Part shown: positions 39,314 to 49,831 of the stretch, in pieces
How positions within the stretch are numbered: the stretch's first letter is position 1
Layout of the letters: the number at the start of each line of letters is the position of its first letter
Origin: Onchocerca volvulus
Lineage: Eukaryota > Nematoda > Chromadorea > Rhabditida > Onchocercidae
Reading direction: 5' to 3'
Assembly (NCBI GenBank): GCA_000499405.2
Contig: HG738137.1
Coordinates: forward strand, 21,166,603 to 21,230,602
Length of the DNA: 64,000 nucleotides
Notes under the pieces: generated by a model
What the model was told of the DNA's origin: nothing
Seen by the model: the letters and a program-made list of their open reading frames with translations, nothing else
Database searches by the model: none
Made by a program: the position numbers and the translations under genes

Positions 39314-42300
39314 TTAACAATCAGCAGACGACAAGACTGAACCAAGGCCAGTCCACTGATCTGGTGCAACCGGAAAGTATGTGTCAATAGCATCAAAGAA
39401 TCGTGTACAGTACATTTCTGGAGAAATAACAGTAGGCAGATGTGCTCCAGGTATCGCTACGATTTTTACCCAGCTTTCCAATTTCTTATCAAGCGTATAG
39501 GTACGCATATAATCCACAATACCAAGAATTAATTCATTGTTCGTTTCATCTACGCCAACAAGCAAACTGTAATCCATTACATACTGAAACAAAAAATTCT
39601 TTTAGCTGTTTAGATACTTGTAATGAAATTATGAAACAGACCACACTGAAATCACTGGTGATAATTTTTATCCTTTACTGATGAATTAAGCATTCAATCA
39701 ACTACAGAGAATGGTAAATATGTTTTTACATTTGAAACACAGCAGTTTTAGTTATATATTTCAATGGCATTGACTGACTACATGAAAATGATTTTCTCTG
39801 GACATTCTAAATTATAATCGACTTATTGTTGCTCAGCAATTCATTAATTAATGAATCAAGTTTAAAGCACGATAAAAAAGAACCTGGGCGGAAAGAAAAT
39901 GGCTATCATTGCTGATAGCCATACTTAATGCTGCTTTGGAATGAGGATGTACATAAAGCTGATTATTCCAAAGATCTTTTACTAAATTTTCATCCAGTAA
40001 CACCAAATCTGCCGTTCGTTTTCCTTCCGATGCCATTCTATAAAATTTATTGGACTCACATATATAATAAAAATATATAGTAAAACGAAACACCAAATTT
40101 CTATCTTTCAGAAACGCAAACCTATTTCTTTGTGAGCCTTTCAGATCCCATACTTGCTTCACATTTCGGCGATAAAATAGATATTCCATAACCAAAACAT
40201 CAACTTTCAACTGTTGACCACTGTTTTTGTTCTTGTAACAAATCCTGTATACACCATAAACCTAAAACTATTTCCAAATACTGACAAAAGTGTTTAAAAA
40301 ATCTTTTATATATACATATTTTTTGTACTCTGCTATAATTTGCGATCTTTTGATTACTACCCAGTAAATATGTAGCTGATGACTGCGAAAGCTAAATAAT
40401 TTTTCACAAATATCGTACTGGTTGAGGTAGTTTTATTTCATCATATTTTTCTGTTCAATAAAACATAAAACTCTGCTTCCTGTAATTAATTTATATCCCT
40501 ACTATACTATATCTTATATATAAGTTTGCATAAACTATTTCATTTTTATTAGTTATATTAGCAAGAAAATACCTTGCAAAGTGTTGTTAACTTATTATCA
40601 GTCATAGCGGTAGAAACATAGCTAAAGTAATTTGGACCAAATTTCACAAATGATTGGATTTCAAATCGAGACATCTGTTTGAACACAAATCGGTCATCCT
40701 GTAAACAATATGTGAAAGAGGTTACGAAATTCACTTACTTTTATCATCCAATTATTATCCACTCACTGAATGTAGCAATCTATTCTTTTTTCAACTCATT
40801 CTTTTATTTCTTTATATAGCAAAAAATTGTTCAAATGACAATGAAACTCGCCTGTGTACGATAAAATGAAGCTCCAGATTTACCACCCTGGGGACTCCAA
40901 CTACGAGATGAGCTTAGAGATCTAATAAAGCAGTCTTCACCTTCAATAAATAACAACTTCCGCAACATATGGAATCTTTCAGCATAATAAATCTGAAATG
41001 TGAATATGTGGTAATAACTTGCTACAAATCATTTATATTATAATAAAACACTGGATAATGGCAAAAAACTCAAAATTAAAATATAAGCTTAAAAAATAGC
41101 GCAAAATTCGGAAGAAAAATTCAAAATTTTCAATAAGAAAATCCAATCTCCCACCTTTACATAATATTGTGCCCTATCATCAGCAAAATCAACTTCAATG
41201 TGTTCGTAATTTGCCATTGAATTTAATTCGACTCTAAAAGTGACTATCAAGCAAAATTTTGTATTTCACGATGAACAAAACTTCATTAATACAGAACAAA
41301 ATCTTTTTTCTGATGTTTACTATTTATTTCTTATTCTATTAACATAAAATTTTTCCAAAATTAAACTGCTACTGTTGAAACAACATCTACTTGAATTTAA
41401 CTTGAAAAACATAGAGTATAAAAATGTTTAAAATTTTTAAAAATTACTTTAAAAAATTTTAAACACTCACTCATCAAAGATATTATAAGCAGAATGACGC
41501 TGTTTTCTTCGTTTCGAGTTATATTCAACTGATGATAAAGCATAAGCGATGATAGAACCAATATCCGGATGTGTTGCACCCTTGCGATCGATCATGTCGC
41601 GTACGACTACTGCTGCTAAACCGGCTAAAAACAACGGATGAAAATGGCATGCCACAAAAAGTGCTGATACGACGCATCAAACTTGTTACAATCCGTTATT
41701 ATATGTTAGAACTTCTAAAACTGAATGTTTTTTTTTTCTTTGAAATAAATTATGCAAAACCAGAGAAATATAAAATATGCAATCAGTTTCCATAAGTGTA
41801 AACAAGCCTGATGGGAGAGGCAAACTGAAGTGATGCTCAGCGAGGAATGGACTCTCCAGTGGTGTGAGTTCAAAATCTAAATTACCGACTTGCATGTGAT
41901 TCGTTGAGAGTGTTTGTTCGTTATTTATTTTATTTGCTTCCTGAATTACTGAACCGAATAATACTGCAGAGTTTGGGATATCTTGTCAAATAATGATTAA
42001 GAGCATTATGATTAATTGAAATTTTTACATTTATAAATACATTTTAAATCAGTATCTAGAAGTTCGTTTTTTCTTTTACAGTTTATTTACTTCACCTACA
42101 AAACGTTAAAGAATGATTAATAACATTCAAACCAACAAATAATGTCAAAACAAAAAGTCTAACCACATTTTCCCCCACAGCTGATGTAAATCCAAAATTT
42201 ACTGTCAAAATACCACTGCTATTAGATTTTTTAATAGTTCGAATCTGTTGAGAAAAATATTGACACTGTTCATTCCATACATTTATTGTATGCTGCAAAA

Positions 42301-45300
42301 TGTATCGACAACGACAAACTGTATCAGTGGCCTGTAAATGTCTTGAGCGATATATATATATATATATATGCATTTCATTATTGTGGCCTATTGGGGAAAA
42401 TTCATAAATCTCATAAATCAACTGATGCCTATAACTCTATTAGTGGATATAAATGAAAAATAAATTAATAATTTCGTTATAAATGAAATAATATTTATGA
42501 AAGACCTGAGTGTAAACAGCATCGTTTGAACGAATCGCAGCAAGTTCGCCAGCAAGCGTACCACTTGGATCAAAACATTTTATCGTGGAGCTGGAAAAAT
42601 ATAAATATATGGAGGCATTGAAGCTTACAAAAAGTGATACTAAAAAATACTGAATAACCTGAAGGCAGAGCGAGCATCTCTTAAAATCTTTACTGCTTGT
42701 GCATGACATGTCGAATACAAGCTGTTTTCAATATATTTTGACAAATGTTCGGTCTGTTCTGACATAATTTTGAAAATGATCGCTGCTTTTTCTTGTATTT
42801 CACTTTTCGACTCGGCGACAAATTTTGGAGTAAACATTATCGGTTCAACAGCACAAACCAACGGACTGAAAGTCACATGGAATGGACGCACCTAGAAGAC
42901 AAAATTAATTCAGTATATCTAATAATTGCTGCCTAATGTAAATTTGCAAATTCAGAAGAAATTTTCTGTCCTCTCTCTGATTGTTTCTAGAATTATACCA
43001 ACATGAAAGAGTAATTATTTCAACATCAACAACATCAAATATTTTGTTTATTTTAAAACACATCCTTTTTACAAAAAAATTAAAATAGAAAAGAAATGGA
43101 ACCAGTAAAACTTTGAAAGTCGTGACCAAATTATTGAGAGCGATATTGCGTTCATGCTGATGAAAACAACAATGTTCACATTTCTAAACAAAAATTAACT
43201 GCAGAAAGAATTATGAACTTGTGAAGCCCTTTTTAACAAGCTATTTCCTTATTTTCATCATAATTGACTAATTCAAATAAGTCTCACAATACCCAAAGTA
43301 TAATTCTATCATTGTTGTTAAAAAGAAAATGCCGGCTGAATTTTGCAATGATTCGAAATGTAAAATGATACTTAATAGCATCTCAAAATTTATCGTTCTT
43401 CAACAAACCCCTATCAATACAGCTATTATACCTTGTGATAAAAAATTCTGCTGTTTTATCTGCAGCGAGAAAAGGGAAATAAAGTTATAAACGAAACCAA
43501 GAAATTAAGTATGAATTCATTTATATTGTGAAAGAGCATGGAAATGCTTCTTTTTTTCTAATATCTTGGTACTTCTTTGCAATGCGATTAAATGCTGCGT
43601 GGAAAGTGCCATCAGTCATTTTCATTATGTTATCTTTAGTTAAGCAAGTCACTTTCTTTCTATTATGCTTTTTTGCATATTCAAAAGCATATCTGCATAT
43701 CCTCTCTGAACCGGATCTAGTAATAATTTTAGTGCATTGAAAAGATTCACCAGTAAGTCTATGCTCTATCCCCGTATAAACGTCAATTTTTCTATGCAAA
43801 ATAACGCTATGAATGATGAAAATATCTCGCCTACCTGCAAAAGTGAATTAATTTTGCATGTTGCATAAGCACCATTTGCTAAATAATTCAAATAACGAGC
43901 AAAACTCAACCGACATATATTTTCCGTCAATGGTACTACCGAGGACGACGATTTGCACCTAAGTAGAACGATAAGATAAAATAATGAGTAAACACAACAA
44001 TTAGCAAGCCAAGATTCTATAAAAGAGAAAATAATAAATTCCGAAATATAAAAATCGGAAAAAAACAAGAGCGAAATAAATCTTGAAATTATAAATGAAG
44101 CCGTAATTTAAAGATTTGTTGATTTATGTAAAGCCTTTATAACAAAATTTATTCAAATTGCAAATTGAAATTTTGCATACTTTGCGCAGTAATGCCAGGT
44201 AAGTAAGATATCGTTTTGCTCATCCAGTGTTGCATTGCTGAATTCACCATTTACACGCAGATAATTCTGCGTTGTTATTTCCACACAAGCGTTCCTATGA
44301 ACAAGTCTTCGAGAATGTTCCATCATTGGCAAATCACAGTTTGCAGATGGACATTGATATGCTCTATTGAAGCAGTACCTAAAATGATTGTAAATCCGAT
44401 AGTAACCTGTAAGAAAATAAAGCATTTACTCCATTCTTTTGGAGGTGACTTTCTACTTTTAACTATAAATTTAAAGGAGATAATAACAAACTTTCTTAAG
44501 AAGTCACCCAATGACATATCATTAACACCATAATAGTCCATATTTACAACCCAAGGCCGAATGCAAAACAGTGGTGCATTCGGTGACTTTGCACAGAATG
44601 ATCCGAAAAGAACTGATATTTGTTGATGAACAAATGGATCCAGCACATCTTCGATCTCTCTGTCAGGAACTGTTTCTTTCCTGCAAAAGATACCTATAAT
44701 CAACACATAAATTAACTGATTTTTTTCTTTGTCTTCCTATTGAGATCATCTCTATAAGCAGCGAATTTATCATACAAATAATCTAATTTGAATATTGAAA
44801 TCTAACTAAAGTTGACATATGATTTCAATACTTTCTGAAATTAATGCTGGTAAAAGTTTATTGCTACCTTAAGCATTTCAAATAGGTTTATCATTGTGTT
44901 AGTACAATTATCTTACTGAAAAAAAGAAAAACATTTCAAAAATAAATAAACCGTAGATGATTCCGATTCTGTTTGTTAATGCTATACCGAAGTAAACAAC
45001 CAGAAAAAGCTCGAAAAGAGGCGACATCATCTTCATCCACTTCCGTCAAAGTGATATTTTTCACAAAAGGATGAACAGACCTTTCTAACAAATAATTTTC
45101 TTCTGTTTTAGAATCTGAGCATTTCCTGAATAAAATTTCATTCCGAAAAGCAGGATTTCTTCAAGAGCACCAAAAAACAGAAATTTTTGAAGAAAAAAAA
45201 CAGATAATTAGATAATTCTGTTAATAAATATTCCTTTTTCATCATGACTAAAAACACAAAAAGAAATTTATTCCATATTGCAAAATCTTCACCTGTTGCC

Positions 45301-48300
45301 ATTATTTTCAACTGATAAACTGTTAATGAAACGACTGAAAAACTTTCTCAATGAACACTGCCGGCCTTTTGATGTTTCTAGAAAGGGAATTCCAAAGTTG
45401 ATCAGTGGAGAAGATGATAGAGTGGATTTCTTTAAACGCTTACAGAAACTGTCCTGGAAATTTCTAAATCAATCCATAACATGGAAACCGAAAGTATTTA
45501 AAATTTTTCACATACAACTGAATGAGGAATAATATTGAAAAAAATAACCTCATTTGTGCCCAGTTCAGCAGCATTAACGGAACAAATATCACAGACCGCA
45601 GACCGATTTGTCAAAGTCGTACCGCAACTAGACAACAACTCTACTTCAAGATGATTGGAATACAGTGTTAGAATTGCATAATGTAAGATCCGTTTAGCTG
45701 CCCTCAAATCTCTTTTTGAGTTACCCCGCAATAATACAGAACAGCCTAATTCTGGTGGGCATTCCTCAAACATCTGAAAAACTAAGTTATCGCTACTTAA
45801 TTTTTTTTTTTTTTTAAATGAGTATGTTTTATAAAAACCTGGAAAAGTTTTGAAAATATAACTCCTCAAAGAAATTTTACTGTTCGTTATTTTTCTACCT
45901 TTCTCTAGCATTTTAATGAAATCCATAAAATTTCTTTATCGAAAAGATTTTCAAATTTTAAGGATAATTTTAATTAAAAATGATTCTTACTAATAAACAT
46001 TTGTATTTCCCATTCGCTAATTGAATCTTCTCTTGTCGAAAAAATGGACAAAATCCAATTTTTTGGTTCAGAATCTGTGCATCAAGTGAAGGCATTACAT
46101 CAGCTCCAGTACTTCTTGCAATTCTTTGCAAAACACGTGGTTTAATGTTAGAAACTAGTGTGACTCCAGCGTGTAATAACATCTGTACAGCTAGGCCAGA
46201 TACATTACGCTCTACCAGAACTACTGATGGCCGATGTGAAAGCATTCTCTCTACCTGATTCCGCAAATATTCACTTTCCTATAATTAACTTCTTCCTATA
46301 AAGAACAATGATAAAAATTCTCAAAAAAATGAATCTTCAATCTGAACTAAAATAATAAAAAAGTGATTCAAGGATATTTTACAGCAGTAGAATTCAAACT
46401 GTATTTCTTGTAACATTCAAAATTGCACCTGTGAAATTATTGGCTCAATTGAAGAAAGCTTATCGTTAACTCGTTCATATTCAATGCTCCCTTCCAAGGT
46501 CAAAATCGATGCATTACGAATCTCGTTTGGCATCGATTCATGCCGAATACTTTTGCTACATACTGTCCCTTCTATTATCTGGAACAAATATAGATTGTAA
46601 TGATGCTCCTAAAAATTAACTACAGTCAGAATTACCATAGAATCAATAAACTTGAAAATAAAATCAAAACTCCCACTTCCATCTACTTTCATCCTATAAA
46701 AATAATAATAAATAATAATAACAGAAGAAAGCATCAGTTTCTCAACCAACTATAACAAATGACTCTTTTCACTGAACAAAACCTTTAGAGTTATTCATTT
46801 GTCAACAGTTACTGGCTCTTCTTTCTTAAGCTATTTGTTCAGGTATAGATGAATGCATTAAAAATGCATTGAGTTATCAATGGCATATCGCTTATTAAAG
46901 ACGAATATCAACAAACTAACTTTCGCGGAGGGCTTTTCAACTGCAACATGAAGGCTTTTGATGTGAGCATGTTTCATGACATTAACACTTTTACGTCCCT
47001 CCATATCAACTTTAACCATTGATGAAACAACATGACTAACAGTCCATATGATTTCCCACCACCTAAACTTTTATTTTATAGTTCTTTCTTCATTAAATGA
47101 ATGAATGGTATGTATTTTATAGATTCGAACTATACGAAATGCTTTGCAGAGATTTCATTTTCCAGCCAGATATAATATCACAGCAAAACTGTGTTATGAT
47201 TAACACAAGAAATCAACTGATAACAGATAAAAAAAAAAAAAAAAAACTAACTCTCTCGGATCTAATCCTTCACGATTAAAAAGATGTAAAATAAGTTTTT
47301 CGAATTGAATTTCAAAACATCTTTCGATTGTTTCACAGAAAAAAGGGTCTTCATTTTCTGATTTCGATGAAGGAATTTTTGGCACGATTTGCTCATCATC
47401 CAGTTCAGTAACATAAAAATTTGACGTACTTTCGATGTTTATGTTATCTTTCTGCGAAGCTGAGTGTGAGTAATCCATAGATTCTGGCTTCTGAAAGTAA
47501 TTATATTAAGTTCGGTTAACTAAAAAAGCTATGGAAAAAGATTTTAATTTAGTAGTATTTAAAAAAAAGTAAAAAGTCTATACTTGGGAATAAAAAATTA
47601 AAAAAACGATTTCTAACAAATTATTTAATAAACTATCTGCAGTTGCATGAAAAGCATGAATTACGAGAAAAACATGGAACATGGAAAACAAATCGCAACA
47701 AATCATATAACCCTAGCAGCTCACTAGCAGCACTCATTGTTAGAATCCTAACAATGAGAATTCTTCTAAACTAGAAGAGATAGTTTTTAAATTTATGTTT
47801 TTAATTTTTTTTTTTTTTTTATTAACAACAAACCAAGTTTGATGAATCCACAGGCTTCACATTATCCGTCATTTCAATATTTTTCACCCATTCCGGTTCA
47901 TGATCATCATCAACATCAAAACGTCCTTGAGCAACCGAACATTGAACATCTGATTTATACATAGCTAATTCCGTTACAGAAAGTTGAGTAGGAGAATCAA
48001 GTTTCATTGATGATTTTTTTGGATTTGAGCAATGAAGTGATACTCCATTCTCATTGTTCTCATCTTCAGCAACAGATGAATTCAGTGACCAAGATACTGG
48101 TCCTACAATGCGTAATAAACATTTTATTGCAAAGTTACACACATAATGACTTCATTTTTAAAAAATCCTGAATTTAAGGTTAAATTTACTGTCATAATAT
48201 TGAAATCAACAAAATCCACTCAATACAATTTAAAAAACCTAGAAATTTATTGCCAAACCTTTTCCAAAATACAAATACCTCAACCTGCAAAAATTGTGGA

Positions 48301-49831
48301 TACTGAAACGTCTGTTTTATGCACCGATTTCTGATCACAAGTTGATGAATTGGATTTATTCTCTAATTTTGATTCTGTTTGTGGTAAATTCGATATTACA
48401 ATATGTGCGCAGTAATTACACAGTCTTAAATCACCTGTATAACCTGCAAAAAATAAATGAATTGTGATTCTTTTTAACTAGCTGCCTGGTAATCTAAAAA
48501 ACACTCATTTCTATTTTTCATGAAAGTAACCTAAGCATCTCTATGTAGAGGCAATAGCCAAACACTAAATAAGGAGAAATATATTTGAAATTACAAACTG
48601 ATAAAAAAAGATCGAATAATAACAGCTTTATTAGTCTGCTGCCAGTCAGAAATTTCACATACCTCATTTATGAAGCTTATGTTCTATTATTATTACTAGA
48701 ATGTACAATCAAGAAGCTGAAAATTTATTTCTACATATTTCAGTATTTTACTCAAATCGCTTAAGAATAAGATATTATTCTGAAAAAAGAAAAATAATTC
48801 AAGCCGACCTAATAATGATCCAGAGACTTGGACACCACAACATTTTGAACAAAATATTTGTCCACATAAACGACAATGATGTCGCCTTCTGAAGGCAGTA
48901 AAACGTTCCTGGCATTCGTAACATTCCCGTCCACTTGAATCTGGCATCCAGTATCGTCGAAAATCACTTCTGTAAGTCAACTTGGGATATTTGACAGAAA
49001 TTCGATCGCTAAAACTTGCTAAATTTATACAATGGTATTTCCGAAAACTGCTACTAAAACAGAGTGATGTTTTAATAAATTTAACCTTTCATAATCCAGG
49101 AGATCAGGATTTCGCCCTTTAAAAACGGAAGCAAAACGAACAGATGATCTTTTTCCTTCTTCCACAATATCACTGATATTTTCATTGCTTTCCTTTGAAT
49201 CCATCCTCGTTTTATCGACTTCATTTTCTGAAAATTCAAAAACATGATAAATAGCTATTAAATTGCATCCTACTTACTGATATCACAATTTTAATATATC
49301 CGAATTACCAAAAACTAAATGTGAATAGTAAAAATGAAATAATAGATGAAGCGTTGGTTCATTCAAGAATTTGTCAATCATGAGTCAAATAAATGAGCAT
49401 AGTTGTTACTTCTCTTACTCACAGTATAAGAGAACAAAAGTAGTGAAGAGACATGAAGTAAATTCTGAACTATGATAAAATAATATGAAGTAAGCGAAAG
49501 GAATTTAGTATAGGTAAAAATGCATCAAAGTAAAAACTTTACTCGTAGGGATGTTTGGCGTCTTTTCTGCTTCTTCATGCTTGGACTGATCGGAATTTTT
49601 GCAGTTTTCAGACGGTGATTTCGATACAGTGGTTTCATCTATCGCATCGCCTGCTATGCTGATATCTTTCGATGACTTGAAAATTCGATTGAAAAAGTTG
49701 CCGAAAGTACCGGATGAAGTGGATGCTATCGCTGTTACCGTTTCATTGGCTAATTCTTCAGGATGAGGGGTGAAATAAGTAATGCATGTAGCGTCATCAA
49801 TTGGTTCCATACCTTGGAATTGTTGCCACAT
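39314..49831 (-). CDS. ppk-3: PIKfyve/Fab1 phosphatidylinositol 3-phosphate 5-kinase
   Basis: About 27 exons give roughly 1,530 residues: 49543-49831, 49086-49227, 48809-48969, 48285-48443, 47834-48102, 47252-47490, 46921-47062, 46429-46578, 45991-46278, 45549-45773, 45293-45453, 44988-45125, 44492-44680, 44181-44378, 43835-43958, 43127-43183, 42659-42891, 42506-42590, 42164-42331, about 41808-41940, 41471-41624 or 41615, 41155-41233, 40852-40992, 40573-40698, 40122-40261, 39884-40037 and 39314-39583. FYVE finger at about 144-212 (WMPD, RRHHCRLCG), chaperonin-like region about 430-620, Cys-rich region (YQCPSANCD, HYCAKC), and C-terminal kinase with GGKSGASFY, VFKQM, DLKGS, MDYSLLVG and DKKLESWVK. 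It makes PI(3,5)P2 on endosomes. The DEP domain of human PIKfyve is absent. Start uncertain (49879, 49831 or 49810), and the junction near 41.6-41.8 kb is unresolved. Confidence 0.95.
42350..42369. repeat. (TA)n microsatellite
   Basis: About ten TA units within the PIKfyve intron just upstream (on the minus strand) of the exon at 42164-42331. Confidence 0.9.
43521..43799 (-). pseudogene. icd: Rickettsiales-like isocitrate dehydrogenase fragment
   Basis: An open stretch of about 92 codons lies inside the 651-bp PIKfyve intron 43184-43834, in the sense orientation of the host gene. It reads DVYTGIEHRLTG, then TKIITRSGSERICRYAFEY, then HNRKKVTCLTKDNIMKMTDG, then TFHAAFNRIAKKYQDI. These are central-domain signatures of isocitrate dehydrogenase. 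The CLTKDNIMK and FNRIAK forms are those I associate with Rickettsia and Wolbachia Icd, whereas animal mitochondrial IDH3 typically has AVHKANIMK. Homology fades at both ends: upstream only RKID precedes DVYTG where an ENEED-type sequence is expected, and the last residues before the TAA do not fit. It has no start region, no 3' half and no splice link to the PIKfyve exons. I read it as a decayed nuclear insert from a Wolbachia-type endosymbiont. Source not confirmed by search. Confidence 0.75.

Follow-up and report, generated by a model that had tools for sequence, protein, structure and literature searches.

The window analysed here, a stretch of 64,000 nucleotides from Onchocerca volvulus located at C2:21166603-21230602, contains a PIKfyve-type gene on its minus strand, and an intron of that gene holds a short piece of isocitrate dehydrogenase (icd) DNA of Wolbachia type. 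The gene and insert comprise the following features.

39317..49088, minus strand: PIKfyve-type gene, the span supported by its FYVE, Cpn60_TCP1 and PIP5K domains (not its true ends)
48699-49088, minus strand: FYVE domain, from the ORF domain scan
45973-46278, minus strand: Cpn60_TCP1 domain, from the ORF domain scan
39317-40261, minus strand: PIP5K domain, from the ORF domain scan
43835..43958, minus strand: upstream exon, ending ...INSLLQ, its 5' edge placed by eye from the acceptor signal
43184..43834, minus strand: predicted intron with the insert, 651 bp, starting GTAGGC and ending GTTTAG, phase 0
43112..43183, minus strand: downstream exon, beginning KCEHCC, its 3' edge placed by eye from the donor signal
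43561..43784, minus strand (C2:21210163-21210386 on the contig): Wolbachia icd fragment, read as a nuclear Wolbachia transfer (nuwt), with DNA matches to the icd genes of the Wolbachia of Onchocerca ochengi (wOo) and of Dirofilaria immitis (wDi); it corresponds to the middle of TIGR02924

Domain matches were found in four of the five ORFs scanned, and FYVE, Cpn60_TCP1 and PIP5K follow one another in order on the minus strand, which we take to be the PIKfyve arrangement. Searches of a PDB set with hand-joined exon peptides did not find PIKfyve, one returning a chance match to ribosomal protein S16 (E 0.68) and the second nothing. The intron is predicted from splice signals and phase, not from an aligned homologue or RNA; it contains stops in all three frames, and the exons on either side of it join in phase 0 (...INSLLQ to KCEHCC...). 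A first-pass annotation of this DNA had proposed a filarial host and an insert inside a sense intron of PIKfyve at 43184-43834, with the exons joining in phase across it (SLLQ to KCEHCC), and each of these proposals agrees with what we find: the intron has GT...AG ends and the insert lies on the same minus strand as the gene.

The icd piece sits within a stop-to-stop ORF of 108 codons (43521-43847, minus strand), for which the best curated family (NCBIfam) is TIGR02924, ICDH_alpha, an NADP-dependent isocitrate dehydrogenase family, at E 2.5e-40 over ORF residues 15-99. The match covers model positions 115-199 of 473 (85 positions) and includes neither end of the enzyme, as had been suspected, and the ORF fails the family's test for a working gene, scoring 139 bits against a curated cut-off of 561.35; it is not full length. 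The isocitrate dehydrogenase motifs quoted earlier are present in the minus-strand frame at 43521-43799, where about 92 codons had been taken as bacterial; by DNA homology, the Wolbachia-derived part is only 43561-43784, on the minus strand, 224 bp or 74 codons. Homology at the nucleotide level stops sharply at both ends against wDi and wOo, the two supergroup C genomes aligned. Protein-level matches run slightly longer (ORF residues 5-99 in the contig search, 43557-43805 for the window against wOo), an excess that we read as probable chance extension into host sequence, and the remainder of the 108-codon ORF outside 43561-43784 is host sequence.

Over its 224 nucleotides the insert is identical to wOo icd at 219 (98%) and to wDi icd at 203 (91%), and wOo was the best match, with wDi next, among 41 Wolbachia-genus genomes (37 matched), among which wOv, the resident strain, was not identified. 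The tree check proposed in the first-pass annotation places the insert as sister to wOo (support 99/93), and the two together join wDi at 94/78. After removal of three duplicates, the 37 rows of the tree comprise the insert, five other Anaplasmataceae and 31 of the 37 Wolbachia genomes that matched. Because just 4 of its 34 inner branches carry a star, while 18 stay open, we rely only on its insert/wOo/wDi corner. The two identities and the grouping with both strains bear out the Wolbachia-type origin first proposed, and there is nematode DNA on both sides, PIKfyve-type exons flanking the insert on the 28.3-Mb contig C2. All 48 candidates among free-standing proteins of 0.55-1.75x the query length carry an Iso_dh Pfam domain, the best-scoring being 72% identical over 77% of the query, and the genome-contig search returned at least 525 confirmed relatives, of which the best 80 were listed and 8 of those 80 loci used.

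When did the piece arrive? Of the five differences between insert and wOo, two are changes in wOo itself, two are nuclear changes when both wOo and wDi are taken as the reference, and one is ambiguous. The nuclear-side change at position 45 has the same base in 6 other rows of 40, and at position 185, the ambiguous one, the insert has the base of most rows whereas wOo and wDi share another; the nuclear-side changes could partly be states of wOv, which is absent from the comparison. Judged from these alignments, the source is the supergroup C Wolbachia lineage of Onchocerca, and the transfer postdates the split from the wDi lineage. Because the insert shares 98% of its bases with wOo and its branch arises later than that of wDi, the transfer is not the ancient one that had been supposed, an age ruled out by the tree position together with the pattern of differences from wOo and wDi.

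The host sequence surrounding the insert, about 127 bp, occurs a second time in the genome in uninterrupted form, and its two halves align as follows.

43487..43562, plus strand: left host half, its last 2 bp common with the Wolbachia piece; 71/77 identical, with one 1-bp gap, to G000:C2:2285840-2285916
43783..43833, plus strand: right host half, its first 2 bp common with the Wolbachia piece; 49/51 identical to G000:C2:2285920-2285970

In the flank copy at C2:2285840-2285970, which lies 18.9 Mb away on the same contig and about 1.1 kb downstream of where GMPPA ends (GMPPA match E 4.7e-45), the halves are collinear, 3 bp apart and without the Wolbachia insert; the stretch containing it, L019, has no match to the wOo genome at E up to 1e-3. 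This paralogous empty site is the one useful addition of our analysis and gives the junctions at base level. Each side shows a 2-bp overlap of host copy and wOo, AT on the left and TC on the right; at local base composition, an overlap of at least two bases is expected by chance with a probability of 20% at each junction and 4% at both; the three target bases GGC of the empty-site copy are missing at the insertion site, and the comparison of the two sites revealed no target-site duplication at the junctions. The flanking sequence was found in two places, the window's own included, by a search that ignores common words and gives scores to the top candidates alone, such that more copies are possible, in a host assembly of 94,684,704 bases against the 96,340,582 published (PMC12693587), from which some small contigs could be absent. 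The copy of the host sequence in the window stops one base short of the PIKfyve-type 5' splice site (window 43833-43834; L019:4971), an end that chance, copying of an intron or patch repair may each explain.

The insert is one of several Wolbachia pieces in the window and the genome. Compared with the wOo genome, the whole window contained two DNA matches at E up to 1e-4, one at 43561-43784 and one at 720-864, and the reversed window contained none; within 43184-43560, the search for further Wolbachia DNA against wOo yielded only a 27-bp match (E 0.08) that we take as chance. The piece at 720-864 is 82% identical over 147 columns to wOo at about 736.4 kb (L169:16413-16554), within a 207-codon minus-strand wOo ORF. 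With 653 nuwt regions in this genome, the probability that a 64-kb window includes at least one is 35%, and that it includes at least two, 7%; this window has two.

Two further icd pieces lie elsewhere in the host genome, on C4 and C3. The first, at 1488-1995 of L006 (G000:C4:1214853-1218158), is decayed, 81.5% identical to wOo and with two stops, and is joined, overlapping by 3 bp, to a second Wolbachia piece from about 785 kb in wOo; a further weak 61-bp Wolbachia match lies at 498-558. The second is 94% identical and belongs to a patchwork at 1334-1838 of L007 (G000:C3:18867734-18870952), in which four Wolbachia pieces stand 0-7 bp apart within about 500 bp, drawn from wOo at about 774, 213, 73 and 810 kb and including the icd start (positions 2-74). 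L007 holds a fifth piece at 2679-2759, and window positions 43477-43510 match this same locus at 28 of 34 bases.

Taken together, we are confident that the insert is a nuwt, a short icd piece from the supergroup C Wolbachia of Onchocerca that lodged in a PIKfyve intron, probably through end joining, and that is most likely spliced out and functionless. A double-strand break in the intron's host sequence would have been repaired, probably by end joining, with a Wolbachia icd fragment captured at the break, three target bases replaced and 2-bp overlaps at the joins; the insert would then be removed with the intron, and its open frame would simply be inherited from the source gene. Capture of a fragment during break repair fits the 2-bp overlaps, the three lost bases and the lack of a target-site duplication, though these do not prove it, and it also fits the genome's two other icd pieces, one of which sits in a patchwork of Wolbachia pieces while the other is joined to a further Wolbachia piece. 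The overlaps themselves hint at end joining and no more, and speak weakly for any repair pathway. In numts and nupts, organelle fragments have likewise been captured at breaks, often as patchworks; the source here is a bacterial endosymbiont, not an organelle.

The first-pass annotation had named a nematode IDH3 gene as the finding that would overturn a bacterial origin. The insert does belong to the same superfamily, and the mitochondrial NAD-IDH model matches the ORF at E 1.6e-24, behind TIGR02924, but the host's own genes are far more distant. The host-genome IDH search gave 14 matches, comprising 3 Wolbachia-type icd pieces, 10 overlapping stretches from the three host IDH genes and a single weak hit, L017; leaving out L017, protein identity to the insert is 46-55% for the host genes but 96% for wOo and 89% for wDi, and with 98% nucleotide identity to wOo besides, an IDH3 exon or pseudogene has a vanishingly small chance of being the source, and that origin is already refuted by these identities. 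That symbiont reads were wrongly joined into a nematode scaffold is a more substantial concern, given that the worm carries Wolbachia, that the symbiont's genome was assembled in the same project (PMC5310847) and that the insert is 98% identical to wOo, a close relative of the resident strain. Nevertheless, we consider a chimera very improbable: two of the 5/224 differences from wOo are absent from both wOo and wDi (wOv not being in the comparison), the insert occupies the precise point at which a host sequence is interrupted, an intact copy of that sequence elsewhere differing there by the loss of just 3 bp, and hundreds of such inserts have been published, with cloning having confirmed junctions for four of the seven O. 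volvulus nuwts longer than 1 kb (PMC5310847).

The order of events within the intron leaves more room. A single patchwork repair might have brought the host pieces and the Wolbachia piece together, instead of the latter entering a pre-existing copy; patchworks of Wolbachia DNA exist in the same genome, the ages of host copy and insert do not differ significantly (P 0.12-0.22), and the copy's end lies beside the 5' splice site. Because the two host halves run collinearly in the other copy with just 3 bp between them, one later insertion is simpler, and we regard the single repair as unlikely. Improbable, in our view, is the further idea that a composite patch of ectopic host and Wolbachia DNA built the 5' end of the intron, or that the GMPPA-side copy is a retro-copied intron piece ending at its 5' terminus; if the composite patch were true, symbiont DNA would have helped to enlarge, even to create, a spliceosomal intron.

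Returning to the captured fragment, could it still encode something? The 108-codon open frame in sense orientation invites the thought, as do the transcribed and partly translated nuwts reported in O. flexuosa, some of which reportedly share transcripts with nematode genes (PMC5429809, as far as the accessible parts of that report go), such that silence of the insert cannot be assumed. The annotation had remarked that the insert kept a long open frame; however, in 4,000 simulated trials each, the 74-codon frame stays open in 90% with 2 substitutions and in 86% with 3, and since openness is expected after two to three random substitutions, it is no evidence of selection. Only 85 of the 473 model positions are present, without either enzyme end; one clear nuclear change leaves the protein sequence as it was, while the other clear change and the ambiguous difference both alter it. 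The upstream exon's frame, moreover, stops at the 23rd intron codon and differs from the icd frame, therefore retention of the intron alone would leave icd unexpressed. A functional bacterial peptide kept by the worm, or a new exon, is thus extremely unlikely, and the insert is probably a dead, neutral passenger.

Events of this kind are already catalogued for this genome, and the insert is ordinary. As given in the accessible parts of the two reports, Cotton et al. 2016 (PMC5310847) screened with NUCMER and then TBLASTN at 1e-15 and counted 531 putative O. volvulus nuwts, mostly fragmented and largely nonfunctional, and Vancaester et al. 2025 (PMC12693587) screened with nucleotide HMMs at 1e-30 and obtained 818 matches in 653 nuwt regions, the C-origin inserts in Onchocerca averaging 434 bp. 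Both screens, so described, look able to find the insert at 43561-43784, and it is very probably among the published nuwts already; our literature search for nuwts and isocitrate dehydrogenase together found no paper. The insert resembles those nuwts in being a short, truncated, nuclear supergroup C piece without sign of function, and nothing in the accessible parts of those reports sets it apart in kind, being here intronic, in sense orientation and with a paralogous empty site. The nuwts of the Wolbachia-free hosts O. flexuosa and Acanthocheilonema viteae, in the portions of McNulty et al. 2010 available (PMC2882956), are likewise short (means of 159 and 174 bp), and some lie on fragments that also carry nematode genes; they average 78% and 81% identity, whereas the insert here matches the gene of a living strain at 98% of its bases.

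In conclusion, the single locus matters little in itself, and it shows that function should not be read into an open frame when a symbiont insert is fairly recent. It offers a clean example of the entry of a symbiont fragment, with an empty-site paralogue in the same genome, and pooling base-level junctions like these could address the question of which repair pathway operates.
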